Part shown: piece by piece, positions 34,761-46,859 of the stretch
Layout of the letters: each line of letters opens with the position of its first letter
Position numbering within the stretch: position 1 is the stretch's first letter
Assembly: GCA_004292955.1 (NCBI GenBank)
Contig: RDXX01000009.1
Location: 310,001-374,000, forward strand
Origin: Oscillatoriales cyanobacterium
Lineage (GTDB): Bacteria; Cyanobacteriota; Cyanobacteriia; Cyanobacteriales; Microcoleaceae
Direction: 5' to 3'
Length of the DNA: 64,000 nucleotides
Translations under genes and position numbers: made by a program
Notes under the pieces: model-generated
The model's input: only the letters and a program-made list of their open reading frames with translations
The model's database searches: none
Told to the model about the DNA's origin: nothing

Positions 34761-35104
34761 ATGCGATCGACATCTGTTTTTCACGGCTTTGAGACGCGAT
34801 TTATCGCATTTGGTAAAATAAAAATAACTGGCGGTTCGCTTTTGTTTTGACAGGTACAATAGCAGTCTGATTGTAGATTTTAGATGGTGATTTTAAATAA
34901 AATTGCCAAATTCACAAATATCTGACTAATTTAGGATGCTCCGCAGGATGTTGAGAAGCCCGGTTTATGGATAGATACCTTGCTGTAAAGCCCAGGATTT
35001 TTCGTAGCAACTGGGTTTCTTTGCATCAGCCCTATCATTGTCAATATACAATCCAAAATCTCCAATCAAACATCGACAATAAATCAACAACCTATTTCAG
35101 GGAA
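34761..35104. other. Intergenic region between hemC and a Deg-like protease
   Basis: About 345 nt. No gene, tandem repeat or strong hairpin is evident. An in-frame reading from 34967 exists, but its 46 residues do not look like protein. Confidence 0.5.
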
Positions 35105-35944
35105 ATGCAAAATATGAGCGCTCAGGAAACTCAATTAAAGCTAGAATTGGCAAAAGTTCAGCAACTTTATCGCAAAATGCAGGCAGATCGGAAAGCTTTG
35201 CAGCAGCAATTGAAAGAGTTTAAAACTCAGACAGGAAACTTTTCCGATGTCGTCGAGCAAGTCTTGCCTTCCGTAGTTTCAGTTTACGTGATGGATTGGG
35301 ATACAGGAGAAGAAATTTCTTCCGGGAGCGGCTTTTTTGTATCTCCTGACGTAATTGTCACTAACTATCACGTTATCGAAGATATTGCCGATGAAGATTA
35401 CTTCTACGAGGAAGATGAAGTCGAACAGGTTTTAGTGGAAACTTACGACGGAAAGTTGAGAATGGCAGAGGTGGTATTTACAGGTAATGCGGAAGAGGAT
35501 TTAGCATTGCTGTTGATTACTGGTTTTATCATCGATCCGGCAACAGGGGAACAAGTGGAGTCTCCCGAAGAATATCCTCCCCTAGAATTGTCTTTTGATG
35601 TCAAAGTGGGCGATCGGGTAATTGCTGTGGGCAATCCTATGGGACAGTTTGCTGCAACTGTAACTCAAGGTATTATTAGTGCAATTCGCGAACCGGAAGA
35701 GTATGAGGTGGGCGAGGATGATGAGGATGAGATTGCCGAGGTTAAGGTGTTGCAAACGGATGCGGCGATTAATCCGGGAAATTCGGGCGGCCCGTTGATT
35801 AATATGGCCGGTCAAGTTGTTGGGGTGAACACGTGGGGATTGGAAGATGCTGATACTATTAATTTGGCGATCGCCTCCGTTGCATTGGATGACTTCTTGG
35901 CTGGATTTGAAGAAACTTTTGAGGGTGAACCTGATGAGGAATAG
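35105..35944 (+). CDS. Trypsin-like (Deg-type) serine protease without PDZ domain
   Basis: A 279-residue protein from the ATG at 35105 (MQNMSAQETQLKLELAKVQQ), preceded by AGGG; the ATG at 35114 is an alternative. Residues 1-45 are a predicted coiled coil. There is no signal peptide or membrane segment, so it is probably cytoplasmic. The triad is visible: His in VIVTNYHVIED, Asp in NAEEDLALLLI, and Ser in INPGNSGGPLINM. Long acidic inserts interrupt the fold: DEDYFYEEDEVEQV after the His strand and EEYEVGEDDEDEIAEVK before the Ser strand. The C-terminus ends in EEPDEE-like acid. No PDZ domain follows, unlike HtrA/DegP. Its targets are unknown. Confidence 0.82.
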   Translation: MQNMSAQETQLKLELAKVQQLYRKMQADRKALQQQLKEFKTQTGNFSDVVEQVLPSVVSVYVMDWDTGEEISSGSGFFVSPDVIVTNYHVIEDIADEDYFYEEDEVEQVLVETYDGKLRMAEVVFTGNAEEDLALLLITGFIIDPATGEQVESPEEYPPLELSFDVKVGDRVIAVGNPMGQFAATVTQGIISAIREPEEYEVGEDDEDEIAEVKVLQTDAAINPGNSGGPLINMAGQVVGVNTWGLEDADTINLAIASVALDDFLAGFEETFEGEPDEE

Positions 35945-36241
35945 TCGCTAGTTGTCGGTAATCTGTGATTCGGGCGATCGCACTTTTTGTGAAAAGATGT
36001 GAAAAGGGCGATCGGCTCAAACGACGGTTCAAGCAAATAGTAGGTTTTTTGCGATCGTCTTAGGTTTTGGGAGAGATGTACCGTCTCCCTGATATTCTTC
36101 AACTAAAAGCTCTAATACTTTAATCATACATAGCGATCGCCCTTCTCCCAAAAAAGCGATCGCCCTCCCTCCCATACATTCACAGCGATCGCCCTTACAC
36201 ACAAAAAAGCCGTCCTTCTAGCGATGAGTATTGGATATTTA
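35945..36241. other. Intergenic HIP1 cluster
   Basis: Four or more GCGATCGC/GGGCGATC sites occur at about 30-40 nt intervals between 35970 and 36200, several followed by CCTTC or CCCTCCC. This is a much higher density than in coding DNA. No gene is present. Confidence 0.7.
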
Positions 36242-36490
36242 TTATGCGGCCTCGGTCAAAGTTCTGACACGCAAAACTTCATTAGACATTAACGGTTCAA
36301 TTTCCGACTCAGCTAAAGTAATTACAGCTATAGTTTCACCTAAAGCATTAAAAACTTCAAGACTGTAGCCATCCTCATCGGGGTGGGGATGATGCTCAAC
36401 AATAGTGGCAATATCTCCTCGACAGAGTTTGTACTTGGGTACATCGGTTCGTAATGCTACTCTTTTAAACAAGGGAAATTTCATTTTCAT
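36242..36490 (-). CDS. DUF4926 small protein, possible antitoxin-like gene
   Basis: An 80-82 residue protein. AAGGAG lies 3 nt before the first ATG (36488-36490) and 9 nt before the second (36482-36484), so the second is the better start. The sequence FPLFKRVALRTDVPKYKLCR, GDIATIVEHHPHPDEDGYSL, EVFNALGETIAVITL is the DUF4926 pattern: a small beta barrel built around a GD.A.IVE element. DUF4926 genes are abundant in cyanobacteria beside toxin-antitoxin-like genes. The role is not established. It is divergent from the BrnT-like gene at 36569, sharing an 80-nt promoter region. Confidence 0.78.
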   Translation of the reverse strand: MKMKFPLFKRVALRTDVPKYKLCRGDIATIVEHHPHPDEDGYSLEVFNALGETIAVITLAESEIEPLMSNEVLRVRTLTEAA

Positions 36491-36568
36491 AGCTCCTTAT
36501 ACATCACATTGCCAATTTTTATGCTATATTTGATTGGGGTTCATCTGTTTAATAAAAATAATTAATGT

Positions 36569-36847
36569 ATGAATTTGCGCTTTTATATCGATCCTGAAAC
36601 TGATTTACCTCATATCTATGAGCATGGAGTTAATGAGGTAGAAGTTGAGGATATACTGAGAAAGCCAGGTGAGGATCGTTTGGGGCGCGAAGGTACGCGG
36701 GTAGCTATTGGTCAAACTATAGATGGTCGTTATCTTAAGATCGTTTACGTTCCTGAACCTGAGTCATATAGCGCTTTTGTTATAACAGCGTATGAGTTAA
36801 CAGGTAAACCTTTGAGTGCTTATAAACGCCGACAACGTGGTAGGTAA
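36569..36847 (+). CDS. BrnT/DUF4258-like small toxin candidate
   Basis: A 92-residue basic protein: MNLRFYIDPETDLPHIYEHG, VNEVEVEDILRKPGEDRLGR, then QTIDGRYLKIVYVPEPES and a basic tail YKRRQRGR. The order helix - E..IL..P - G.T..GRYL.V.Y resembles the BrnT/DUF4258 RNase-toxin fold. It ends 2 nt before the ATG of a small acidic gene, as toxin-first modules of this type often do. Toxicity is inferred from layout and fold resemblance; I cannot see decisive catalytic residues. Confidence 0.6.
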   Translation: MNLRFYIDPETDLPHIYEHGVNEVEVEDILRKPGEDRLGREGTRVAIGQTIDGRYLKIVYVPEPESYSAFVITAYELTGKPLSAYKRRQRGR

Positions 36848-36849
36848 AT

Positions 36850-37056
36850 ATGGCAACACAAAATCAATTTCCCTTGAGTTGGGATGAAAAACGAGTGCGC
36901 CAAACGATCGAACATTACGATCGACAGTCAGAAGATGAAGCAGTAGCAGAAGATGAAGCAGCGTTTGACAATAAAGATCAAGCGTTTGTCCAAATTCCTT
37001 TGGAGTTATTACCGTTAGTTAGAGAGTTAATCGCTAAACATTATGCCAGTGTTTAA
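36850..37056 (+). CDS. Small acidic antitoxin candidate
   Basis: A 68-residue protein with an acidic middle (RQSEDEAVAEDEAAFDNKDQ) and a C-terminal helix (IPLELLPLVRELIAKHYASV). It starts 2 nt after the stop of the BrnT-like gene, so the two are surely co-transcribed. Such small acidic partners of DUF4258/BrnT-like genes are usually antitoxins. It lacks a recognisable DNA-binding motif. The family name is unknown to me. Confidence 0.58.
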   Translation: MATQNQFPLSWDEKRVRQTIEHYDRQSEDEAVAEDEAAFDNKDQAFVQIPLELLPLVRELIAKHYASV

Positions 37057-37154
37057 GACCAGATAAATAAAGGCGATCGCCCTTTTTTACCACAGATAAA
37101 CGCGCATAGAATAAGGGCGATCGCACCTCACAAAAGAAAATGGAAATTTTAATT

Positions 37155-37370
37155 ATGCCAATTGCACAACTATTTCCTCTGCTTAGTAATTTATCTCGTG
37201 TGGATAAATTAAGAGTAATAGAATTTTTGGTCTCTGAGTTAGCAAAAGAAGAAGGTTTGGCTAACTTAGAGTCGAAAGATAATTATTTTGAGATGTTGCA
37301 TAATTCCGATGAAGGAGCACGTCAATTAGCACAGTTTTTAGAGGAACAAAAGCAACTGCAAAATGCTTAA
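37155..37370 (+). CDS. Small hypothetical protein, partner of retropepsin-like gene
   Basis: A 71-residue helical protein from the ATG at 37155 (MPIAQLFPLLSNLSRVDKLR); a start five codons earlier is possible. It continues VIEFLVSELAKEEGLANLES and ends RQLAQFLEEQKQLQNA, acidic and without membrane segments. Its last 8 nt overlap the start of the retropepsin-like gene, so the two are translationally coupled. Similar short helical proteins upstream of small aspartyl-protease-like genes are frequent in cyanobacteria; I know of no described function. A toxin-antitoxin-like or regulator/protease relation is only a hypothesis. Confidence 0.6.
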   Translation: MPIAQLFPLLSNLSRVDKLRVIEFLVSELAKEEGLANLESKDNYFEMLHNSDEGARQLAQFLEEQKQLQNA

Positions 37371-37785
37371 TGGTGAAAAATACTCTTTTGCCTCTAAATT
37401 CGATCGCTTTGGCGAGGTATCTTATGCGCCTTATTTACCGATAATATTAAGCTATCGAAACCAGTCAATTGAAATGATGGGGTTGTTGGATACGGGGGCA
37501 AGTATGAATGTTTTGCCTTATGAAATTGGGTTACAATTAGGGGCAGTTTGGGATGAACAAACTTTTATTATTTCTTTGTCGGGAAATCTGGCAAATATCG
37601 AGGCTAGGGCTTTGTTGTTGTCAGGGACAGTCAGCAGGTTTGCACCAGTTAACTTGGCTTTTGCTTGGACTAGACAAAGAAATATGCCGCTCATTTTAGG
37701 AAGGTTAAATTTTTTGGCAGAGTTTGATGTTTGTTTTTATGTATCTGAACTAGGATTTGAAATTGCACCTAAGCAATCTCACTAA
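37363..37785 (+). CDS. Retropepsin-like aspartyl protease
   Basis: A 140-residue protein with the retropepsin active-site motif LLDTGASMNVLP (Asp in DTGAS) and a second conserved strand PLILGRLNFLAEFDV, the usual Ile-Leu-Gly flap-side element. One such chain would need to dimerise to build a two-Asp site. There is no signal peptide. The start overlaps the upstream helical gene by 8 nt. The peptide substrate is unknown; the partner gene could encode it or regulate the enzyme. A bidirectional HIP1-built terminator follows. Confidence 0.78.
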   Translation: MLNGEKYSFASKFDRFGEVSYAPYLPIILSYRNQSIEMMGLLDTGASMNVLPYEIGLQLGAVWDEQTFIISLSGNLANIEARALLLSGTVSRFAPVNLAFAWTRQRNMPLILGRLNFLAEFDVCFYVSELGFEIAPKQSH

Positions 37786-37817
37786 TAGGTGGTTATAAGC
37801 GATCGCCCTTCCACACA

Positions 37818-37865
37818 AAAGAGCGATCGCCTCATAATATCTTTAGGGGCGATCGCTCTTTTTTT
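37818..37865. terminator. Bidirectional terminator built from two HIP1 sites
   Basis: AAAGAGCGATCGCC (37818-37831) pairs perfectly over 14 bp with GGCGATCGCTCTTT (37848-37861), 16-nt loop, followed by T7 (37859-37865). The complementary A run gives U's on the other strand. It lies between the convergent retropepsin-like (+) and von Willebrand D (-) genes. Confidence 0.8.
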
Positions 37866-37893
37866 GAAAGGGGATTAAAAGATCGATCGCGAA

Positions 37894-40479
37894 TTAGAAG
37901 GGTAAAGGAATCGGAATCGGAACGCGATTACGAATTTCTTGTTCAACTCGTTGCTTAACTTCGTTTTTAAGGATGTTAGCAGCAACACTGGCAAGGCTGA
38001 CATCGCCACTGGCCGCCACATCAAATAAACATCCTTCTAGGCGTTCGTTTGGTACTTCAGCTTTACGACAAGTTTCTTCCGCAAGTTGTACGGCTTGGGG
38101 GGCAAGCATCCGCAAGATTACAAAACCATTAGGAAAGGATTTTTTCGTGAAGCTATCGGTATTTTTGCCAGCGGGATAATCAAACAGCGATTCTGTTTGG
38201 GAAATCCGCCAACTATCGCCAAATTGCCGATGAATGGAGTCTAAAAAAGCTTCGGTCAGTGGGTCGAGTGGAATAGGAATCCAGCGGCTAACATCAAAGT
38301 TACTTAATACCGATCGGGCAATGTTCATCGCTTCTTTATTTTCTGCAATGACGCGACCATCACGAGTCATAAAGTCGTCTGAGAGGTTGCCGTTGAAGTT
38401 GCCGAGTAAACCTTCAAGTTGACCGCGATCGCCTTCGGTTACGCCCGGTGTCACTTCAACAAGCTTGTTAAAAATCTTCACACTTACTTGCTCACCACTG
38501 GGCCACTGCACGAGGTAGCTGCCACTGCCCGTGCGAGCAACAAAGCCACCACCGGATAGGTTTTGTTTTTCCCCTGAAATGGTTTTGCCGTTAACGCGCA
38601 AGGGATCTTGAGTGTTGTTATCAGGGAAATCTTGGGAATAGATGGCGACGCGATCGTTGCCGACTCGCATAGCGGCGGCGATATTTATTCCCAGTGATGA
38701 GCTCGATCCATAGGGGGCTTCACGAACTTGTACCTCGAATCGTTTGTCTTTCGATCGGGTTAGGACAAATTCACCGATTGCGTGGTGATCGTATTTTTGA
38801 CCGTCAAAGCTTGTGAGATGTGGATCGCCCCAAGAAGAAGCTGTTTTAAGTTGACCTGTGGGTTGTTGTGTAGTTTGTTGAGGTTGCTGTGGGGAACTGT
38901 CTGGGAAAAGAGCGCGGGCAATTCGATCTCTAATAGATTTACAAACCGTTGGATTGTCGCGACAATATTCGTATGCTGTAAAAGCTAAATCAGCAATCAT
39001 CAACGGCACTGCAAAACGACCAGCGACTCGCAGTGCCAGACGAGAGCCACGCGCAATCAGTCCCAGTAATTTACTGGATTTTGATAAAGCTCGAGAAGCA
39101 CGAGTGGCAATCTTAGACAGATTACGTGGAGGACAAAAGATATTTGATCCCACTTTTATTGATGAAATTTGAGATGCAGGACTTGCAATCTCGGACAGAT
39201 TATGTGAAACAGATAAGACTTTTACTCCAACGCTTTTAATTTCAGCCCTGGCTTGAGGGCAAGGATTATTGCCTCCTCTTTTTCGCAATTGCTCTTGCAC
39301 GCTAGGACTAGGTTTGTTACCTTTGTTAAGTCGGTTCTTAGCAGATTCTTCCTGTTCTGCGAGTTTCTGCTTATCTAGTTGCTCTTTGTCGCTTTCACTT
39401 GACCCGGTATTTGTGTCTCTGCCAGCTTGAGAACGTCGAACCTCCGAATTATTAAGGTTCGGATTCCCTGTAACCTCGAAGGTACGTGGACTTGATGTGT
39501 TATTGTTGGTCAACTTAAATGTATCACTTGAGGTAACATTTTTGGTAACATCCTTCAATTCTACATTTTTTGAAAGATTACCAGTTTTAGCCAGAGGTTG
39601 CTGATTTTGATTGTTAGGTATGTTTGGACTCCCAGGTTTTATATTATTATTATCGACCTGAATAAAATTACTTCTTGTTGGAAAAATTGTCTTGGATTGA
39701 ACGGTTTTTAGACGTAATAGGCTGGAGGCTACAGGACGATTACTTCGCGTTGAAATGGCTTTCCCATCAGCGATTTTCTCAGACATGAAGTAAATCGCCT
39801 CTCCAGAATCTTTATCCTTGATTTCACCCCATACAGCCGCGCCATCTTGACTTTCGGCAGTTTCAACAATTAAGCCTTCATCTTCAATAATAGTTGTTTC
39901 TTGCAACGGAAGATGTTTCAGATTCGGAGATAATTTATGTCCACTTACACAGTCTTCATCGCAAAATTCAGCCACAAGACCTTCTTCTGTCTCGGTAACT
40001 TTTACAGGTGTCGAATAAAATAACGACTCCGGGCTAGAGTCTGCATAATAGCTGGTGATAAAAGTTCCTGTAAGTTCTTGTAATGAAATATTATTTGATG
40101 GCGCTGCTGGATTAACAGGGTTTTGATCGCGATTATCAAAATCAGGACGCACCGGCTGATTCGGTCCCGGATCTTGAGGAAACGGCGGCGCCTGCGGATT
40201 ACTCCCAGGCCGCACACTCGGTGCATCATCAAACTCCCCCGGATCTCGCTGCACCAACCAATCCGAAATATTCCTTTCCACAGCAGGGGGAGTCGCCGCC
40301 ACCACCCGATCGGACGAATTAACTAAATTCACTGTACAAACTGTAGAATTAAAACTAAAAACTGTACAAAGTGCAGCCGATAAAGCTCGATTGATAAACG
40401 TACCAGGATCCAGCAAAGCACTCATTAAAACTGCAAAAAAACTGACAATACCCAGAGCCAAAATACGAATACGACGCAT
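37894..40479 (-). CDS. Large exported protein with von Willebrand D domain
   Basis: An 861-residue protein with an N-terminal hydrophobic signal (ILALGIVSFFAVLMSALLDP). A proline-rich segment follows at residues 86-125 (PGSNPQAPPFPQDPGPNQPV). A region around 130-260 contains a CDEDC pair. A long Asn/Ser/Lys-rich linker (280-400) and two segments rich in Ser/Arg (420-520) come next. The VWD domain starts at SSWGDPHLTSFDGQKYDHHA (548-567) and includes GLLGNFNGNLSDDF (689-703), the position of GLCGNxNG in animal proteins, with Leu for Cys. The C-terminus (FDVAASGDVSLASVAANI) resembles the tail after many VWD domains. It is last of six minus-strand exported-protein genes; surface attachment or adhesion is inference. 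Confidence 0.75.
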   Translation of the reverse strand: MRRIRILALGIVSFFAVLMSALLDPGTFINRALSAALCTVFSFNSTVCTVNLVNSSDRVVAATPPAVERNISDWLVQRDPGEFDDAPSVRPGSNPQAPPFPQDPGPNQPVRPDFDNRDQNPVNPAAPSNNISLQELTGTFITSYYADSSPESLFYSTPVKVTETEEGLVAEFCDEDCVSGHKLSPNLKHLPLQETTIIEDEGLIVETAESQDGAAVWGEIKDKDSGEAIYFMSEKIADGKAISTRSNRPVASSLLRLKTVQSKTIFPTRSNFIQVDNNNIKPGSPNIPNNQNQQPLAKTGNLSKNVELKDVTKNVTSSDTFKLTNNNTSSPRTFEVTGNPNLNNSEVRRSQAGRDTNTGSSESDKEQLDKQKLAEQEESAKNRLNKGNKPSPSVQEQLRKRGGNNPCPQARAEIKSVGVKVLSVSHNLSEIASPASQISSIKVGSNIFCPPRNLSKIATRASRALSKSSKLLGLIARGSRLALRVAGRFAVPLMIADLAFTAYEYCRDNPTVCKSIRDRIARALFPDSSPQQPQQTTQQPTGQLKTASSWGDPHLTSFDGQKYDHHAIGEFVLTRSKDKRFEVQVREAPYGSSSSLGINIAAAMRVGNDRVAIYSQDFPDNNTQDPLRVNGKTISGEKQNLSGGGFVARTGSGSYLVQWPSGEQVSVKIFNKLVEVTPGVTEGDRGQLEGLLGNFNGNLSDDFMTRDGRVIAENKEAMNIARSVLSNFDVSRWIPIPLDPLTEAFLDSIHRQFGDSWRISQTESLFDYPAGKNTDSFTKKSFPNGFVILRMLAPQAVQLAEETCRKAEVPNERLEGCLFDVAASGDVSLASVAANILKNEVKQRVEQEIRNRVPIPIPLPF

Positions 40480-40507
40480 AATTCACCTCAACTCAATGAT
40501 TCAATGA

Positions 40508-41044
40508 CTACTGAACAATAGTGACTAGAGTACCTACCTTTACCTGAGAAAATAATTCCTCTGCATCCTGGCTATACATCCGCAAACAGCCGTGAGAAAT
40601 AGCCTGTCCCACTGTTTGTGGCTGGTTGGTGCTGTGAAAGCCATACCAAATTCGACCTTCAGTAGAAAACCCAATCCAGTAACTACCTAGCGGATTTGCC
40701 GGATCGCCGGCTGGGACAATTTGACCCGTCAATGGATTCATCCAAATTGGGTCGCGAACCATCTGAACAACGCTAAAAGTTCCAGTAGGTGTTTCCCATC
40801 CAGCTTTGCCAATACCTAGCGGGTATTTTTTAACCTCAACTGCACCCCGGTAAACTGTCACTTGGCGACGACTAAGACTGACTTCTAGGCGAGTTTCCTG
40901 ATTAACTGGCGGTTGCAATTCAAGAGATAGCCCTCTCACTTGAGCCAACACAATAGGTTGGTGGCTAACAATTAAACCTGTGGCTGCTGTCCACAAAACT
41001 ACCCAACTTGAGAGTGACGTGAAAATCTTAAACATCTTGTACAT
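40508..41044 (-). CDS. L,D-transpeptidase (YkuD family)
   Basis: About 178 residues from the ATG at 41042-41044; starts 7 codons earlier or 3 codons later are possible. A hydrophobic signal (FTSLSSWVVLWTAATGLIVS) precedes the YkuD domain: LEVSLSRRQVTVYRGAVEVK, PLGIGKAGWETPTGTFSV, and the active site HGCLRMYSQDAEELF with the catalytic Cys and the usual His/Gly. WYGFHSTNQPQTVGQAISHG is also typical. The enzyme would act on peptidoglycan stem peptides in the periplasm or attach proteins to them. It sits 28 nt upstream of the von Willebrand D gene and 5 nt after the 198-residue exported protein gene, so it is inside the operon-like block. Confidence 0.85.
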   Translation of the reverse strand: MYKMFKIFTSLSSWVVLWTAATGLIVSHQPIVLAQVRGLSLELQPPVNQETRLEVSLSRRQVTVYRGAVEVKKYPLGIGKAGWETPTGTFSVVQMVRDPIWMNPLTGQIVPAGDPANPLGSYWIGFSTEGRIWYGFHSTNQPQTVGQAISHGCLRMYSQDAEELFSQVKVGTLVTIVQ

Positions 41045-41049
41045 AAGCA

Positions 41050-41646
41050 CTACCAACCACCACAAACCAGTTGAGAATTAGGAGGAAGGCGAGGGTAAGG
41101 CGATTGTCGCTCCATTGTGAAAGGAATTGTCACTTTACTGCGATCGGGCTTGCCATCCGAGAAGGCAATCTGACCGTTGATTTTGAAACCGCGATCGCTA
41201 ATATCGCCCGTTAATTGTCCGTTGCCAAATCGCAAAGGTATGCTGCTAGTAATCTGCTCTCCCAAACGCTGTCCTTTACCTAAACCGCTGCTATTTTGAT
41301 AAAAACCAGAAATTGAGAGGTTATCTCCATCCTCAGTAATTTCTACCATCGCAGTATAAGGTTGTCCTCCGGCAAAAAATCCCGATTCAGGGTTGTATCC
41401 AAAATCTGTAGGCGAACTAAATTTCCACTTACCAGTAACAGGACAAGTAACCCTTGCATTAGATGTCGAGGGCGATGGAGCGTTTGAATTGCCATTAGGA
41501 TTATTAAACTCAGGGCGGATAATATTAGGCCCCGGATCTTCAGGATACGGCGGTGCTTGTCCATTGCTAGCAACAGACAGCGTATTTCCAACTGTAACAA
41601 AAATAAAAATTCCCCAATTAATAAATCGAAATCGAATCCTACCCAT
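41050..41646 (-). CDS. Exported protein of unknown function
   Basis: A 198-residue protein with a signal peptide (MGRIRFRFINWGIFIFVTVG, then NTLSVASNGQ). Just after it is QAPPYPEDPGPNIIRPEFNN, nearly the same as QAPPFPQDPGPNQPVRPDFD in the von Willebrand D protein of this block. The rest (CPVTGKWKFSSPTDFGYNPE, VEITEDGDNLSISGFYQN, PLRFGNGQLTGDISDRGFKI) looks like a beta-rich ligand-binding or lipocalin-like fold, with one Cys near each end. I do not recognise the family. It is 5 nt upstream of the L,D-transpeptidase gene. Confidence 0.65.
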   Translation of the reverse strand: MGRIRFRFINWGIFIFVTVGNTLSVASNGQAPPYPEDPGPNIIRPEFNNPNGNSNAPSPSTSNARVTCPVTGKWKFSSPTDFGYNPESGFFAGGQPYTAMVEITEDGDNLSISGFYQNSSGLGKGQRLGEQITSSIPLRFGNGQLTGDISDRGFKINGQIAFSDGKPDRSKVTIPFTMERQSPYPRLPPNSQLVCGGW

Positions 41647-41751
41647 AACTTACCTCACAGATTGAGCAGTTAAGATTACCGAAACAAGTCCAGAACCTTC
41701 AAGTAAATCAGAAGCGCGATCGCTCTCAATAAAAGCGATCGCCCTCACGCC

Positions 41752-42657
41752 CTAAAACGGCAAAATCCTCCGAATACCCCGTTGAATCACATCTTTAACA
41801 ATATTTTTACCAAAATCTCCAAACCAACCCTGAGCCTCCCCAGGCTTTACCTCTTCCGCATCCACATTAGCTGGCGGTTTATTATCAATTTTAAAAGCAG
41901 ATTTATCTATCCCCACCTGCGACATCATCCCCACAAAAGTATTAATCGGAATCGCTGAATTAAACCCCGTTTTCGCCTCTCCCGTATTTTGTCCACTCTC
42001 ATTTTGAACTGCTATAAGACCGTCAGTATCTCCCTGTCCGTGAATACCAATCACTCGACCACTAACATCAAAAACAGGCCCGCCACTCATTCCCCGCCGC
42101 GTCACCGCAGCATAACGCATCGTATATCCTTGATCGTTACTTGACCGGACATTAGTAACTTGCCCATTGGTAAACTGATATTCTCGTTCTTGACTCCCCA
42201 CACCCGCAGGTAAAGGATATCCCGAAATATAAACCCCCGATCCAATCGTTGCTTCATCGGAATTGCTAATCGGTGCAACGGAATATTCTTCGTCACTTTC
42301 AAATACCACAACTGCTAAATCCGGCCCGCTCTCATTATTCCGCAAACCCTTGACATCCGTCACCTTATGCTCTTTCCCCTTAGAAGTCCGAATCATAAAT
42401 TCAGTATTAGGATTTTTCACGACATGATTTGCCGTTAGCACCGTGTATGTTTTACCTTTCTTAGTAATAATTACTCCAGAACCACTATCTCCTGGACTCA
42501 GGATATTGTTGATCTGTACTGTAGTGGGAACTGCTATTTGAGCGACTTCTTTAGCAGTTTTTGCCATGACAGGCTGGCTAATCACAATTGCTGCAACTGT
42601 TGCGGTTCCTGCTACGATCGCCGGAACATAATTAAAACGAGAAACTCCGAAATTCAT
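41752..42657 (-). CDS. Exported trypsin-like serine protease
   Basis: A 301-residue protein from the ATG at 42655-42657 (MNFGVSRFNYVPAIVAGTAT), chosen because GGGAG lies upstream; the longer reading runs into repeat DNA. The signal sequence ends near QPVMA. The chymotrypsin-like triad is: His in YTVLTANHVVKNP, Asp in NESGPDLAVVVFES, Ser in RRGMSGGPVFDVSGRVIG. The C-terminal stretch (NTFVGMMSQVGIDKSAFKID) follows the protease domain. No PDZ domain. It is paralogous to the adjacent upstream protease (42823-43605): the same order of VLTxxHVV, DLAxVxF and GMSGGPxF. Its substrate is unknown; co-location with COP23 and VWD proteins suggests work at the cell envelope. Confidence 0.82.
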   Translation of the reverse strand: MNFGVSRFNYVPAIVAGTATVAAIVISQPVMAKTAKEVAQIAVPTTVQINNILSPGDSGSGVIITKKGKTYTVLTANHVVKNPNTEFMIRTSKGKEHKVTDVKGLRNNESGPDLAVVVFESDEEYSVAPISNSDEATIGSGVYISGYPLPAGVGSQEREYQFTNGQVTNVRSSNDQGYTMRYAAVTRRGMSGGPVFDVSGRVIGIHGQGDTDGLIAVQNESGQNTGEAKTGFNSAIPINTFVGMMSQVGIDKSAFKIDNKPPANVDAEEVKPGEAQGWFGDFGKNIVKDVIQRGIRRILPF

Positions 42658-42719
42658 AAATAACTCCCTTGATAATCTGAAACAAAATGTCAAATAATGG
42701 CGTACAAGTTCTAAATTTT

Positions 42720-42826
42720 GTAGGGCAATCCCTCCGTGGTTGCCCCAAATTTCGGGGATTTTGTAGGGGCAATCCCCCCGTGGTTGCCCCAAATTTAAGG
42801 GCGCGCACGGGGGGCACCGCCCCTAC
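42720..42826. repeat. GTAGGGGCAATCCCCCCGTG repeats, two direct copies
   Basis: GTAGGGCAATCCCTCCGTGG then TTGCCCC (from 42720) and GTAGGGGCAATCCCCCCGTG then GTTGCCCC (from 42763). Each can fold by pairing GGGGCAA with TTGCCCC. A GGGGCACCGCCCCTAC tail follows and runs into the end of the upstream protease gene. It separates the two protease genes. Confidence 0.8.
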
Positions 42827-43605
42827 AAAGAAACTCGCGCATAACGCAAATAGGTACTAATCGGAATTCCCCAACTAGAATTAACCATGAGTTCCAACAT
42901 TGCTCCCGATGGCTCAGTTCCATCCTCAAAGGCATAAATTCCAAAATCTGGATCGCCGTTCTTCATCCGACCATTAATCCCAATTAAAAGCCCCCGATCG
43001 TTAAAAATTGGCCCGCCGCTCATCCCTACAGCAATATCATTTGTGTATCCCAAACGATATCCTTGAGCGAGGGATTTTGGTGGCAGCACCGATACAGCAC
43101 CTTGGGTAAATCTAAATGCCCGAATTCCTTGCTCGAAAGTAGTTGTTAAACTGCGGCCCCGATACATCGGAAATCCGGCGGCAAATACGGGTTCTCCTAC
43201 TCTTAATAAATCAGTGCTAATTTGGGCGACTTGATAGGTGTTGGAACTGCGAAATTGGACGATCGCCAAATCGGCATTTCCCAACTGTCTCGGAGCACCC
43301 AGCAGCCGATAACGCTCACCGTCCGGGGCGATCGCGGTATGCTGCTGGCTGAAACCGACAACGTGCCAATTTGTCAGCACCGTGTAAACTTGACCCTGCC
43401 GCTGGACGATCGCCCCGGAACCTGAAGCATCAGGCGTTAAAATACGTACCGTCGTTAGCTTTGCCAACCTTTCAACATCGGCATTTTGAGCATCAGTAAC
43501 GGGAGAATTTGCGCTAACTGGTTGGGCAATAACGCTGCAACTAGCTGGAAAAATACTCAGCACAACCGCACAAACTCCCGTCAGTCCCAGTCTTCGCAAA
43601 TTCAT
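42823..43605 (-). CDS. Exported trypsin-like serine protease
   Basis: A 260-residue protein from the ATG at 43603-43605 (MNLRRLGLTGVCAVVLSIFP), with AAGG about 5 nt upstream and a signal peptide ending near SCSVIAQ. The triad is His in YTVLTNWHVVG, Asp in LGNADLAIVQF and Ser in IAVGMSGGPIFNDRGLLIG. The start is only 4 nt after the COP23 stop, so the two genes are translationally linked. It resembles the next protease (41752-42657), from which a repeat-filled 165-nt gap divides it. The last codons overlap a dispersed repeat. The substrate is unknown. Confidence 0.83.
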   Translation of the reverse strand: MNLRRLGLTGVCAVVLSIFPASCSVIAQPVSANSPVTDAQNADVERLAKLTTVRILTPDASGSGAIVQRQGQVYTVLTNWHVVGFSQQHTAIAPDGERYRLLGAPRQLGNADLAIVQFRSSNTYQVAQISTDLLRVGEPVFAAGFPMYRGRSLTTTFEQGIRAFRFTQGAVSVLPPKSLAQGYRLGYTNDIAVGMSGGPIFNDRGLLIGINGRMKNGDPDFGIYAFEDGTEPSGAMLELMVNSSWGIPISTYLRYARVSL

Positions 43606-43609
43606 CACC

Positions 43610-44233
43610 TTAAAGCTCCCGCGATCCGGCACCAGTGCTCGGTTGGGTGGGGGCTACTCGCGGTTGCCCTGATGCGGGTTTTGGCGCAGCTACGGGCGCG
43701 ATCGTACTTCCCTCGTCCCCCAACCTGCCGCTGACATCAATGAACGGAATACTGTCTTTGCTTTCAGACAGAGAAGGCGCACCCGCTTGTCCCTCCCGCC
43801 AAGCCAAGAGATTATTCAGTGTTTTCACTGCATCTTGATTCGGTTTCAGTGTAAATATCAATCCTTGGCAGCGGCCATTTACTTGGCTGGCAGTGCAAAC
43901 CACTCGCTGTCCGTTCATTAGCCCTACAGTGATGAACTTAAGCTCTTTGTTACTGCGGAAAGTTTCCAGGCGACTGCTCACCTCGCGACAACGAGTCGCA
44001 GGATCGTACCCAGCACCGGAGAAATCATTAGAAACCCACCGAATCCAAGGTTCTCGATTTCCCTGTACGTTTTGATACATCGTAATCGGCACACCGCTTG
44101 AATTGTCGCACCAAAAACCGCGCTGTCCCGGTGCCGGTTGACTTTGAGCGGGTTTAGCGCTTAAAGATACGCTGCTAAGGGCGATCGCGATCGCCCCTAC
44201 TGTCAAAGCAGTCATTGATTGCCATTTGCTCAT
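43610..44233 (-). CDS. COP23-domain exported protein
   Basis: A 207-residue protein with a signal peptide (MSKWQSMTALTVGAIAIALS, then SVSLSAKPAQSQ). The domain has FWCDNSSGVPITMYQN, then PWIRWVSNDFSGAGYDPATR, CREVSSRLETF, FITVGLMNGQRVVCTASQVN and GRCQGLIFTLKPNQDAVKTL. This is the pattern of COP23, first described as a circadian-oscillating membrane protein of cyanobacteria. Four cysteines are conserved. A Pro/Ala-rich C-terminal tail follows. It is the first of six same-strand exported-protein genes and overlaps nothing; the next gene starts 4 nt later. The function of COP23 is not known. Confidence 0.8.
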   Translation of the reverse strand: MSKWQSMTALTVGAIAIALSSVSLSAKPAQSQPAPGQRGFWCDNSSGVPITMYQNVQGNREPWIRWVSNDFSGAGYDPATRCREVSSRLETFRSNKELKFITVGLMNGQRVVCTASQVNGRCQGLIFTLKPNQDAVKTLNNLLAWREGQAGAPSLSESKDSIPFIDVSGRLGDEGSTIAPVAAPKPASGQPRVAPTQPSTGAGSREL

Positions 44234-44663
44234 GATTATTAACTTCTCTCAAAAAACTAATTATTTGCCAATAAACAACAAGCCGGAAAAGTGACAAATG
44301 CGATCGCACGGATCGCCTGCTGCCATTTCCCCAGCCCCGCGAAACTCACATCCGTCACAGACTAGGTTTTATGTCACCTATATTCAGTTGATTCAAACTT
44401 TAATGCTGTCAGCCCTCACAGCCGTACAGTCTAGATGCACTTTAGGGTTGAAAAACCCTAAAATGATATTTTACATCATTCTCTTCTATTTATCAATACC
44501 CCAATGCAAAAATTTTATTAGCGATCGCCCTCGGTTGAAAAACCCCATTTATTTAGCAGATCCCGGTAAGGAAACAGCAATGCCACGTCCCTACAGATAT
44601 CGCGTAAAATCTAGCTGTTAGCGTGTTTAACCTGACGGATTAGCGTAATAGCCCGATCGCACT
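44234..44663. other. Intergenic region upstream of the exported-protein block
   Basis: No gene is convincing. A degraded dispersed repeat (CAATGCCACGTCCCTACAGA) lies near 44578-44600, and a short AGGGTTGAAAAACCCT hairpin near 44448-44463. The promoter of the COP23-led block should lie at the left of this stretch. Confidence 0.5.
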
Positions 44664-44984
44664 TTACCTTCTCGACTTCCACTCCTCAACATCTTCATCA
44701 GTAATAAAATACCGATAATGAGTCGAACCCTTAACAGTAGTTACCCGAATCAAATTTTTCTTCTCCCTCTCACTCTCAATAGTCACCTCTCCAAACCCAG
44801 TTTTTTCCCAAGTTTCCGACAGAATGTCCTCGATTTTATCAAAAACCAGATTAATCGGATTATCCCTACTTTCTCGCCCCGATCGCATATCTGTTTCCAC
44901 CTTCTGACTGGACTTAGATTTACTATTACTGTCTCCCGCTTTCTCAGCCCGATCGCCCGCAGCATCATTTGACACAAACCCCAT
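44664..44984 (-). CDS. Small hypothetical protein (106 aa)
   Basis: A soluble protein with a polar, disordered-looking N-terminus (NDAAGDRAEKAGDSNSKSKS) and a compact C-terminal part (INLVFDKIEDILSETWEKTG, FGEVTIESEREKKNLIRVTT, VKGSTHYRYFITDEDVEEWK). The last part has a strand-strand-helix look. I do not recognise a family. Regular protein-like composition in the C-terminal half is the main support. Confidence 0.5.
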   Translation of the reverse strand: MGFVSNDAAGDRAEKAGDSNSKSKSSQKVETDMRSGRESRDNPINLVFDKIEDILSETWEKTGFGEVTIESEREKKNLIRVTTVKGSTHYRYFITDEDVEEWKSRR

Positions 44985-45431
44985 AGCTTTTTCCTCCCCA
45001 AACTTCAGCTTCTATAGGTATTTAGGAAAAAGCCTTCTATTTTTACGCATATTGGCAGGTTTTGTAACAATAATTTACACCATCGCCCCCAGCGCCATTC
45101 ATACATAGTCAGGTACAATACGTGCGATCGCAATCAGTACGTCCGCCATTAGCAATTCCCAGTATTTGTATCGGAATTATCAAAACATATCTTATCTACC
45201 AGAAACTCCATACTTCCTACCTCTAAGGTCGATTTGAGACTAGAGATTTGAGACAAGAAATTTGAGATTTCCTTCACAGCCTCTACTAAATGCTTGAACC
45301 GAGCACTAAAAAAATTGCTTAACCATCGACAATAGAGATTTATACTTGTTTTTTGGACGGCACGTTAACATTGTGTCCCTCGCCATTTAAACTTGATCTA
45401 GCCTAACTATCCCAAGGAACACAAAAAAATA
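44985..45431. other. Upstream region of glgA
   Basis: About 450 nt with no gene. A GAGACTAGAGATTTGAGACA type heptamer-like tract occurs near 45235-45268. AAGGAA lies 11 nt before the glgA start as a likely ribosome-binding site. Confidence 0.5.
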
Positions 45432-46859
45432 ATGCGAATTTTATTTGTATCCGCCGAAGCAGCACCCCTAGCCAAAGTGGGCGGTATGGGCGATGTCGTC
45501 GGCGCTTTGCCTAAATTTCTGCGCCGCATGGGTCACGATGTCCGCATCTTCATGCCCTACTACGGCTTCGTCCCCGACAAAATGGACGTTCCCAAAAAAC
45601 CTGTTTGGAATGGGGCGGCCATGTTCCAAAGCTTCTCCGTCTTTGAAACTCTTTTGCCGGGAACCGATGTACCTTTATACTTATTGCAACATCCATCTTT
45701 CTTACCACGCCGGGTTTACGGCGGCGTCGATGAAGATTGGCGGTTCACTTTCTTTGCCAATGCTGCCGCTGAATTTGCCTGGAATCACTGGAAACCACAA
45801 ATTATGCACTGTCACGACTGGCATACGGGGATGATACCTGTTTGGATGAAGCAAGACCCCGATATCAGCACAGTTTTTACTATTCACAATTTAGCTTATC
45901 AAGGGCCGTGGCGCTGGCGTTTGGATCAGATGACTTGGTGCCCTTGGTATATGCAAGGTCACAATACAATGGCTGCGGCTGTACAGTTTGCCGATCGCGT
46001 AAATACAGTTTCGCCCACCTACGCCGAACAAATCAAAACCCCAGCCTATGGGGAAACTTTGGAAGGTTTGCTATCTTTCCTCGGCGGCAAAGTATCAGGT
46101 ATTTTGAACGGAATTGATACAGAATCTTACAACCCAGAAACTGACAAGTACCTCCACCAACAATTCAGTGTTGATACTATTGACAAGCGCCCAGTTAACA
46201 AAATTGCGCTGCAAGAAGAAGTCGGTTTGGAAGTGAATAAAAATGCCCTGTTAATCGGCATGGTGACGCGGCTAGTAGAACAGAAGGGGCTGGATTTGAT
46301 CATTCAAATGCTCGATCGCTTCATGGCCTATACCGACGCTCAGTTTATTGTACTCGGAACTGGCGATCGCTACTACGAAACCCAACTCTGGCAAATGACC
46401 GCCCGCTATCCCGGCCGAATGTCCACCCAATTACTCTACAACGACGCCCTCTCCCGCCGCATTTACGCAGGCTGCGACACCTTCCTGATGCCCAGCCGTT
46501 TCGAGCCCTGCGGCATCAGCCAAATGCTCGCCCTCCGCTACGGTTGCGTCCCAATGGTGCGCCGCACCGGCGGTTTAGTCGATACTGTATCTCACAACGA
46601 CCCGATTAATGATACCGGCACAGGTTACTGTTTCGATCGCTACGAACCCCTCGACTTATTCACCTGCATGATCCGAACATGGGAAGGTTTCCGCTACAAA
46701 GATAAGTGGAAAGAACTGCAAAAGCGCGGCATGAAAGAAGATTTTGGCTGGGACATTTCTGCCAGAAAATATGTCAACTTGTACAGCGAAATTCTCGGCA
46801 TCTCACCAGACGAAATCGCACCGGAACCGGAAACCGAATTAATCATTGGTAAAGGTTAA
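45432..46859 (+). CDS. glgA: Glycogen synthase
   Basis: A 475-residue GT5 glycosyltransferase that extends alpha-1,4-glucan from ADP-glucose. The N-terminus [20 protein letters not shown] contains the KVGGMGD motif that binds ADP-glucose. [19 protein letters not shown] and [20 protein letters not shown] are family landmarks, and [20 protein letters not shown] with [11 protein letters not shown] forms the C-terminal catalytic region with the conserved Glu and Cys. The length is normal for bacterial GlgA; cyanobacteria often have two forms and I cannot tell which this is. It is a single gene, followed by a 61-bp palindromic element. A GH57 alpha-glucan enzyme lies 9 kb away. Confidence 0.95.

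Follow-up and report, generated by a model that had tools for sequence, protein, structure and literature searches.

Proteins that join a constant delivery part to a replaceable C-terminus across a defined exchange boundary are described among the polymorphic toxins, such as those of contact-dependent inhibition (CDI/CdiA) and the Rhs proteins, which also leave detached C-terminal pieces (PMC3482391 and PMC3150448, in the portions available). The peptidases that release polymorphic toxins include HINT, ZU5, PrsW, caspase, MCF1-SHE-like and PVC metallopeptidase types, among others, and the word 'trypsin' does not occur in the first 300,000 characters of that account (PMC3482391). Trypsin-like peptidases accompany variable effectors in the conflict systems dependent on nucleoside triphosphates (NTPs) of bacteria with a multicellular habit, most of which have MoxR-vWA, STAND or GTPase components at their core, and another of which couples NucA nucleases to trypsins (PMC7159879, likewise in its available part). 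Here we analyse a 64,000-nucleotide stretch (hereafter the window) of the 7.29 Mb genome of an Oscillatoriales cyanobacterium (GenBank assembly GCA_004292955.1, contig RDXX01000009.1, positions 310,001 to 374,000 of the forward strand), and in it a block of six genes coding for a COP23-family protein, two trypsin-like proteases (A and B), a short exported protein (U), an L,D-transpeptidase (LDT) and a large protein with a von Willebrand D (VWD) domain, which we call the cargo. COP23 stands for circadian oscillating protein of cyanobacteria, a name that refers to expression, and the first gene of the block is a member of this family (PF14218).

The block shares with the polymorphic toxins, as far as the available portions of those papers describe them, the constant delivery part, the replaceable C-terminus and the defined exchange boundary; L055, L059 and some further loci also hold detached C-terminal pieces that may be counterparts of theirs. 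It differs in that no adjacent immunity-type gene was found among open reading frames of at least 70 aa, in that several C-termini look adhesive, in the absence by Pfam of any CDI, Rhs, type VI (T6SS) or type VII (T7SS) secretion part, and in its separate exported trypsin-like proteases with COP23. From the NTP-dependent conflict systems, to the extent that PMC7159879 could be consulted, it differs by export-type N-termini on all its parts and by having no NTPase. Exported proteases of the HtrA/Deg kind resemble A and B in the Trypsin_2 domain and the catalytic motifs, and both proteases are weakly similar to HtrA models; however, no PDZ domain was found in either of them by Pfam at E ≤ 1. Among the papers listed for COP23 in cyanobacteria, no title or abstract opening concerns a protease partner or such a cassette, and none among those listed for polymorphic toxins (alone or with trypsin), CdiA-CT, VWD with trypsin-like, cyanobacterial exoproteomes and constant or variable termini describes the cassette, most subscription papers being outside this coverage.

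We read this block, with about even confidence, as a polymorphic exoprotein cassette, in which a constant module of COP23 and two proteases precedes a cargo whose N-terminus is constant and whose C-terminus can be exchanged, and would provide the cargo with its own maturation proteases. At the level of sequence, the cassette combines a constant module in constant order, a constant N-terminal module and linker, replacement of the cargo end in place, C-terminal types scattered across cassettes of unlike ancestry, and presence or absence as a whole at one fixed site. It looks like a fast-changing, undescribed secreted-protein system of filamentous cyanobacteria, the back end of which is here a VWD domain. 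Below, compared genomes are numbered with G and charted loci with L.

The constant N-terminal part of the cargo, or N-module, runs from a basic start through a hydrophobic helix, the motif xPGTFxNR, another hydrophobic stretch that contains two cysteines, and the motif RVVAAxPP into a linker, QAPPFPQDPGPNxxRPxFDN. In none of the cargos scanned with Pfam did the N-module have a match, and its AlphaFold2 model is of low confidence. When the VWD protein was compared with 243 genomes of the order, 48 matched; many of the matches were confined to the N-terminal part, not going beyond residue 244, and others to the VWD part. In the neighbourhoods of these matches, the same N-terminus with quite different C-termini lies behind COP23 and proteases of types A and B.

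Exchange in place can be followed at the window's own site, between a trypsin gene (34967-35944) and glgA (45432-46859), where four genomes (the window's, G001, G277 and G371) carry the cassette with three types of cargo: VWD in the window and G001, and two others in G277 and G371. Residues 1-115 of the cargo match those of the window at 87% in G001 and at 90% in both G277 and G371, and beyond residue 115 the cargos of the latter two show no match to it. The DNA of G277 and G371 follows that of the window at 91-92% as far as the linker's end at about 40131-40137, and from there nothing aligns until protease B. G001 is close to the window around the block (glgA 98.7%, COP23 98.5%, protease A 97%), and its cargo agrees at 30% over residues 116-250, not at all over 251-540 and at 70% in the VWD part. 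Mere similarity of signal peptides was rejected as an explanation, since residues 1-115 of the G277 and G371 cargos agree with the window at 90% but their COP23 at 63-64%. Other sites with common flanks and differing cargo are L060/L125, L123/L127, and L065 as against L064 and L066, which have one type.

The cassette as a whole also comes and goes at this site, being cleanly absent from 8 of 14 glgA neighbourhoods taken from other relatives. In G264, G033, G260, G273, G317, G285 and G288 the flanks lie 35-492 nt apart, compared with 9.3 kb in the window, and in G200 the aligned pieces, 89-99% identical, leave out 37890-45362. Among the remaining loci, that of G109 stops at a contig end and those of G092, G308, G250, G219 and G300 have no match to the left flank; three of these last five genomes carry the cassette elsewhere. 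Within the same genus, the N-module is present in nine genomes and in none of at least 20 others.

Fifteen cargos, the broken one of G343 being excluded, were compared in pairs (another cargo comparison had 16). Residues 1-120 are at least 80% identical in 51 of the 105 pairs, and 36 of these 51 have no BLAST match (E ≤ 1e-3) beyond residue 135, as in G152/G055, G371/G126 and G126/G255 with 96, 95 and 92% identity in the N-terminal part. C-termini were grouped for the 45 of 50 charted cargos with at least 80 residues beyond the N-module and a 35-residue margin: they show 29 architectures, yet fall into 6 groups when any local similarity is counted, as shuffled modules would. Above the Pfam cut-offs the C-termini carry VWD, Amidase_2, Beta_helix, Peptidase_C1 or Big_5 domains, and most scanned cargos have no match; labels for the latter were given by eye and not from database results: 'hydrolase-type' (HSQG-like motif), 'PLA2-like' (HDQCC) and, for a beta-rich and repeat-free look, 'Ig-type'. 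A sequence search of solved structures with a hydrolase-type cargo gave no match. On a tree of protease B (last 290 residues of 18 proteins), cargo type requires 10 changes, against a mean of 10.2 for shuffled labels, which required as few in 122 of 200 cases; cargo type is thus as scattered as shuffled labels, and the count is understated because one label, 'other', lumps several types. In G250 and G343, protease B is identical over the part compared and the cargos differ.

Of 388 genomes of the order, 44 matched a model of the N-module, with 52 matches in all; at a stricter E the model matched 15 of 388 genomes of the class, a sample overlapping the first. Fifty of the 52 were charted (the filter for open reading frames, ORFs, removed the matches of G066 and G323) and divided into 19 strong (at least 100 bits) and 31 weak (below 100 bits) N-module genes. 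The full trio of COP23 and two proteases, sought within 6.5 kb, lies upstream on the same strand at 14 of the strong genes and at 9 of the weak ones, the other 22 weak ones lacking it. A strong N-module is thus tightly linked to the trio, its distant relatives only loosely. These counts include the window and G001, although U and LDT intervene there, and G255, although a stop lies inside its COP23. Four further strong genes (G108, G178, G242 and G065) have a partial trio, and for that of G360 the contig ends 325 nt away. In G108, one ORF (L064, 2694-3377) fuses the start of COP23 to the end of protease A, as if by deletion, and protease B and the cargo are retained. The order COP23, A, B, cargo recurs in 21 loci from several genera and families, and the arrangement is therefore more than chance. 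Among the named carriers are Planktothrix rubescens PCC7821, Tychonema sp. BBK16 and metagenome-assembled genomes (MAGs) of Microcoleus.

Where the cassette came from was also asked of mobile elements and defence systems: an origin from phage or plasmid was rejected, as there was no N-module match in 72,556 plasmid and 50,697 phage records and none confirmed in viral contigs, and so was a known anti-phage system, PADLOC having matched just the protease domain of A and B and none of the other eight proteins.

The preferred reading, a cassette that matures its own exoprotein, would work as follows. The N-module, with its two hydrophobic helices, would deliver the precursor and hold it at the membrane, where proteases A and B may cut around the conserved linker with COP23 as a putative cofactor or adaptor, so that the C-terminal part would be freed to the cell surface or the medium. 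C-termini could be swapped by recombination within the near-identical DNA of N-module and linker. In the window genome the cargo carries VWD, and U (with the same linker) and LDT were presumably inserted behind protease B, ahead of the cargo. The mechanism that we prefer, and regard as plausible, is that a surface protein would be matured by proteolysis. Two arginines of the linker region, Arg78 and Arg111 of the window cargo, are invariant in the nine cargos of alignment A3, which would suit trypsin-like proteases if A and B have the specificity presumed for them.

Several observations weigh against this reading. The full trio is missing within 6.5 kb of 27 of the 50 N-module genes (22 weak, 5 strong): G242 and G065 have COP23 without proteases and G178 has a single protease, and as strong N-module genes thus occur without the full trio, the proteases are not always local. 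The weak-N-module family genomes G281, G294 and G323 are without a protease A orthologue, the Amidase_2 and Beta_helix C-termini (L070, L076) belong to cargos with no trio alongside, and sets of COP23 and proteases also stand away from N-module genes, in the window genome among others. Further common sequence follows downstream in 15 of the 51 pairs with a conserved N-terminus. Some cassettes are damaged (the cargo frame of G343 is broken and COP23 of G255 has an internal stop), and several carrier genomes are MAGs, the records of PCC7821 and BBK16 not being labelled so. Finally, a fold search with the model of COP23 (block of residues 31-140, pLDDT, the predicted local distance difference test score, 82-93) gave a best Z of 3.2 and a best Foldseek E of 0.17, no clear match that would hint at a role, a known fold being possible; the best sequence match among solved structures has E 0.92.

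The constant-N/variable-C architecture with exchange of the C-terminus in place would also fit a strict polymorphic toxin system, in which the variable C-termini are antibacterial toxins released or delivered to neighbours and the proteases their activators. Potentially harmful enzymes do occur among the C-termini, namely the papain-like Peptidase_C1, which G141 has on an additional, weak N-module gene, and Amidase_2 on a cargo without the trio, and C-terminal pieces are detached in L055 and L059. Nevertheless we consider this explanation unlikely, because no immunity-type gene was found behind 25 cargo genes in 23 loci when the next same-strand ORF of at least 70 aa was taken: this ORF was a transposase in L059, a fragment of the cargo itself in L127 and a second N-module gene in L056 and L058, and for the other cargos it lay 97-4463 nt away or was lacking in the stretch (L054, L064). 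A downstream immunity gene was thus rejected, as none of the 25 is closely followed by a small gene peculiar to its type of cargo. Two cargos that differ in type have DUF6883 behind them, the VWD and beta-helix C-termini look adhesive, and a Pfam trafficking domain is absent from the scanned cargos. With no immunity-type gene downstream among ORFs of that size, the cassette is therefore not a classical polymorphic toxin.

The trio might instead be a general COP23-protease housekeeping set that adjoins an exoprotein gene by accident, its proteases acting on other envelope proteins; we hold this to be quite unlikely. COP23 is present in 58 of 59 genomes of the family, in 1-15 copies, and hence alone is not specific. 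At other places in the window genome COP23 also lies next to related proteases or is joined to one, and sets of this kind without an N-module cargo were noted on other contigs (L072, 11416-13906; L073, 4826-9282); in one of them the protease is fused to a second COP23 domain, and the resulting protein of 432 aa supports the partnership of COP23 with such proteases that the preferred reading proposes. However, the subtype of protease A was found in the same 59 genomes only together with the N-module: orthologues (at least 65% identity, E ≤ 1.2e-107, the next match having 2.8e-72) occur in ten, and all ten carry an N-module. G360, with a strong N-module, is outside these ten. The order kept in 21 loci across several genera and families also speaks against an accidental neighbourhood.

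The six genes of the block are consecutive on the minus strand between 37894 and 44233, as an earlier note on this DNA had described them, and all are intact ORFs with ATG starts. The gaps from COP23 to the VWD gene are 4, 165, 105, 5 and 28 nt; the note had given 94 nt between protease B and U, 11 nt too few, and was right in the other four and in placing a repeat in the 165-nt gap. It had also seen N-terminal signals in all six proteins, and an export-type hydrophobic stretch (15-residue Kyte-Doolittle mean above 1.6) is indeed present in five, LDT reaching 1.54. COP23 scores 114.1 bits with PF14218 (cut-off 27) and the VWD domain 61.5 bits (cut-off 22.9) over residues 548-708. Both proteases have the His, Asp and G-x-S-G-G-P motifs, which, with SHGC in LDT, we take to be catalytic signatures. 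The predicted beta domain of the cargo weakly resembles calycin/lipocalin barrels: the best fold match has Z 6.8 (root mean square deviation 2.9, 78 aligned), Foldseek gives a best E of 2.6e-3, and many barrels like those of lipocalins and fatty acid-binding proteins stand at Z ~5. The variable middle of the VWD gene contains a 73-nt imperfect direct repeat (71%) at 39081-39231. Coordinates are collected in the table.

Table. Features of the cassette in the window, with positions in the 64,000-nt stretch; alignments A4-A6 served for reading motifs and protein ends only.
Feature	Position	Strand	Description
Accessory interval	35987..45336	.	missing at the same site in relatives; blastn against the glgA loci of 14 genomes
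COP23-family exported protein	43610..44233	-	207 aa; first cassette gene; ends ..GSREL; Pfam PF14218
Protease A	42823..43605	-	exported trypsin-like serine protease, 260 aa; Trypsin_2 73.5 bits, above cut-off
Direct repeat	42723..42801	.	two copies of 35 nt, 91% alike, within the 165-nt gap between the proteases
Protease B	41752..42657	-	exported trypsin-like serine protease, 301 aa; Trypsin_2 85.8 bits, above cut-off; tail ..QRGIRRILPF
U, short exported protein	41050..41646	-	198 aa; linker of cargo type (QAPPYPEDPGPNIIRPEFNN), then beta-type domain
L,D-transpeptidase (LDT)	40508..41044	-	178 aa; YkuD 81.6 bits, above cut-off; SHGC motif
VWD protein (cargo)	37894..40479	-	861 aa
Constant N-module and linker of cargo	40132..40479	-	residues 1-116; two hydrophobic segments, RVVAAxPP, QAPPFPQDPGPNQPVRPDFDN; alignments A1, A3, A7
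Beta domain of cargo	39760..40080	-	residues ~134-240; AlphaFold2 block with pLDDT 60-92
Variable C-terminus of cargo	37894..38840	-	VWD and trailing Cys-containing region, end ..PIPLPF; Pfam VWD, alignment A6

U and LDT do not belong to the constant part. In U the linker directly follows a short signal-like start; the protein has no Pfam match, is 41% identical to the window VWD protein over residues 25-93 (E 8e-6), and its gene shares with the VWD gene a 45-nt DNA repeat, 78% identical. U is a cassette gene in the window and G001 only among the charted loci; elsewhere, in a search of 243 genomes, U-like domains belong to large proteins that also have Calx-beta, cadherin or RTX regions. It is probably a cargo-like module and a lineage-specific insert. 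The cassette LDT was found in 2 of the 59 family genomes, the window's and G001 (a 92% orthologue); an LDT match of some kind exists in 57 of them, all others at 45-54% identity. The cassettes of G277 and G371 at the same site have neither gene. In other genomes the place after protease B and before the cargo is taken by different genes of exported type, a putative metallopeptidase of DUF4344 (G141, and G093 by sequence), a CAP protein (G003) or two genes (G267), so that U and TRANSPEPTIDASE look like exchangeable additions, and U with LDT like a lineage-specific insert.

The earlier note had suggested a coordinated envelope system of all six genes, with proteolytic maturation and anchoring of a surface or adhesive protein as one possibility. 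A six-part system of this kind, with a VWD adhesin that the proteases mature and LDT attaches to peptidoglycan, is very unlikely: the U, LDT and VWD genes are tightly spaced and kept in G001, and the linker is common to U and the VWD protein, but neither U nor LDT occurs in the G277 and G371 cassettes at this site or in the other charted ones, the cassette LDT is confined to two family genomes, and the VWD part can be exchanged. Because U and LDT are lineage-specific, a single conserved operon of all six genes was rejected, and anchoring by LDT would be at most a local addition. What the note had observed is confirmed and its interpretation partly supported: the comparison of gene neighbourhoods that it proposed bears out an exported unit with a conserved core order for COP23, A, B and cargo, with two paralogous proteases travelling with a large surface-type protein, and not for the six-gene combination, in which U and LDT are lineage-specific and VWD, instead of being a fixed partner, is one of several interchangeable C-termini.

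Unrelated proteins of the cassettes can have C-terminal ends in common. In the five loci where COP23 ends in W (L056, L057, L058, L133 and L140), other proteins also do so, among them protease A, DUF4344, CAP, the papain cargo or inserted genes. The end ..LPF is seen in many proteases B and many VWD cargos, U ends in ..GGW, and COP23 ends in REL in 15 of 26 cases. Of 120 cassette proteins 40 end in W or F, as do 7 of the 9 inserted genes and 26 of 316 other ORFs, counts inflated by homologues. The region that follows VWD also occurs as separate ORFs without VWD or N-module (L055, 4660-5175; L077, 7600-7980; L078, 8711-9070), which still end in ..PF or ..RF.

Small genes recur beside differing cargos, of DUF4926 in six loci, DUF4258-like in four (below the Pfam cut-off) and DUF6883 in two; they lie at 36242-36847 in the window, at 5616-6189 in L052 and in L060, L120, L125 and L127, and are possibly mobile or toxin-antitoxin pairs. 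Transposase genes stand 50-445 nt behind the cargo in L124 (10994-11554), L126 (11250-11891), L068 (5972-6520) and L059 (11429-12340), recognized by Pfam as Y1_Tnp in L124 and as DDE type in L059, by similarity in L126 and by eye in L068; the detached C-terminal piece of L059 is behind its transposase gene. By contig match, the cargo of Planktothrix rubescens PCC7821 is one of those followed by a transposase gene. CAP-domain proteins are found a few kb from cassette or COP23-protease genes (L125, 8254-9321; L082, 7781-8929), that of L082 with a U-like C-terminal domain.

A broader picture can be offered tentatively, as a possibility rather than an expectation. A dedicated periplasmic trio of COP23 and two proteases may accept any C-terminal module placed behind one N-module and linker, and recombination might turn the cargos over faster than housekeeping genes diverge. 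The cassette could then serve strain-level surface interaction (recognition of kin or competitors, or escape from phage or grazers) without an immunity gene, COP23 being a protease partner and the whole an undescribed class of polymorphic exoproteins.

The finding is larger than that of the earlier note, as it concerns a trio, constant and presumably serving maturation, together with an exoprotein that can be swapped. COP23, a family named by expression only, gains a recurring genetic partner, and our reading predicts proteases with a defined natural class of substrates. It would add a constant-N/variable-C secreted system to the bloom- and mat-forming cyanobacteria. The presence of carriers among named strains, Planktothrix rubescens PCC7821 and Tychonema sp. 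BBK16, makes strain differences in surface proteins and their bearing on co-existence testable.

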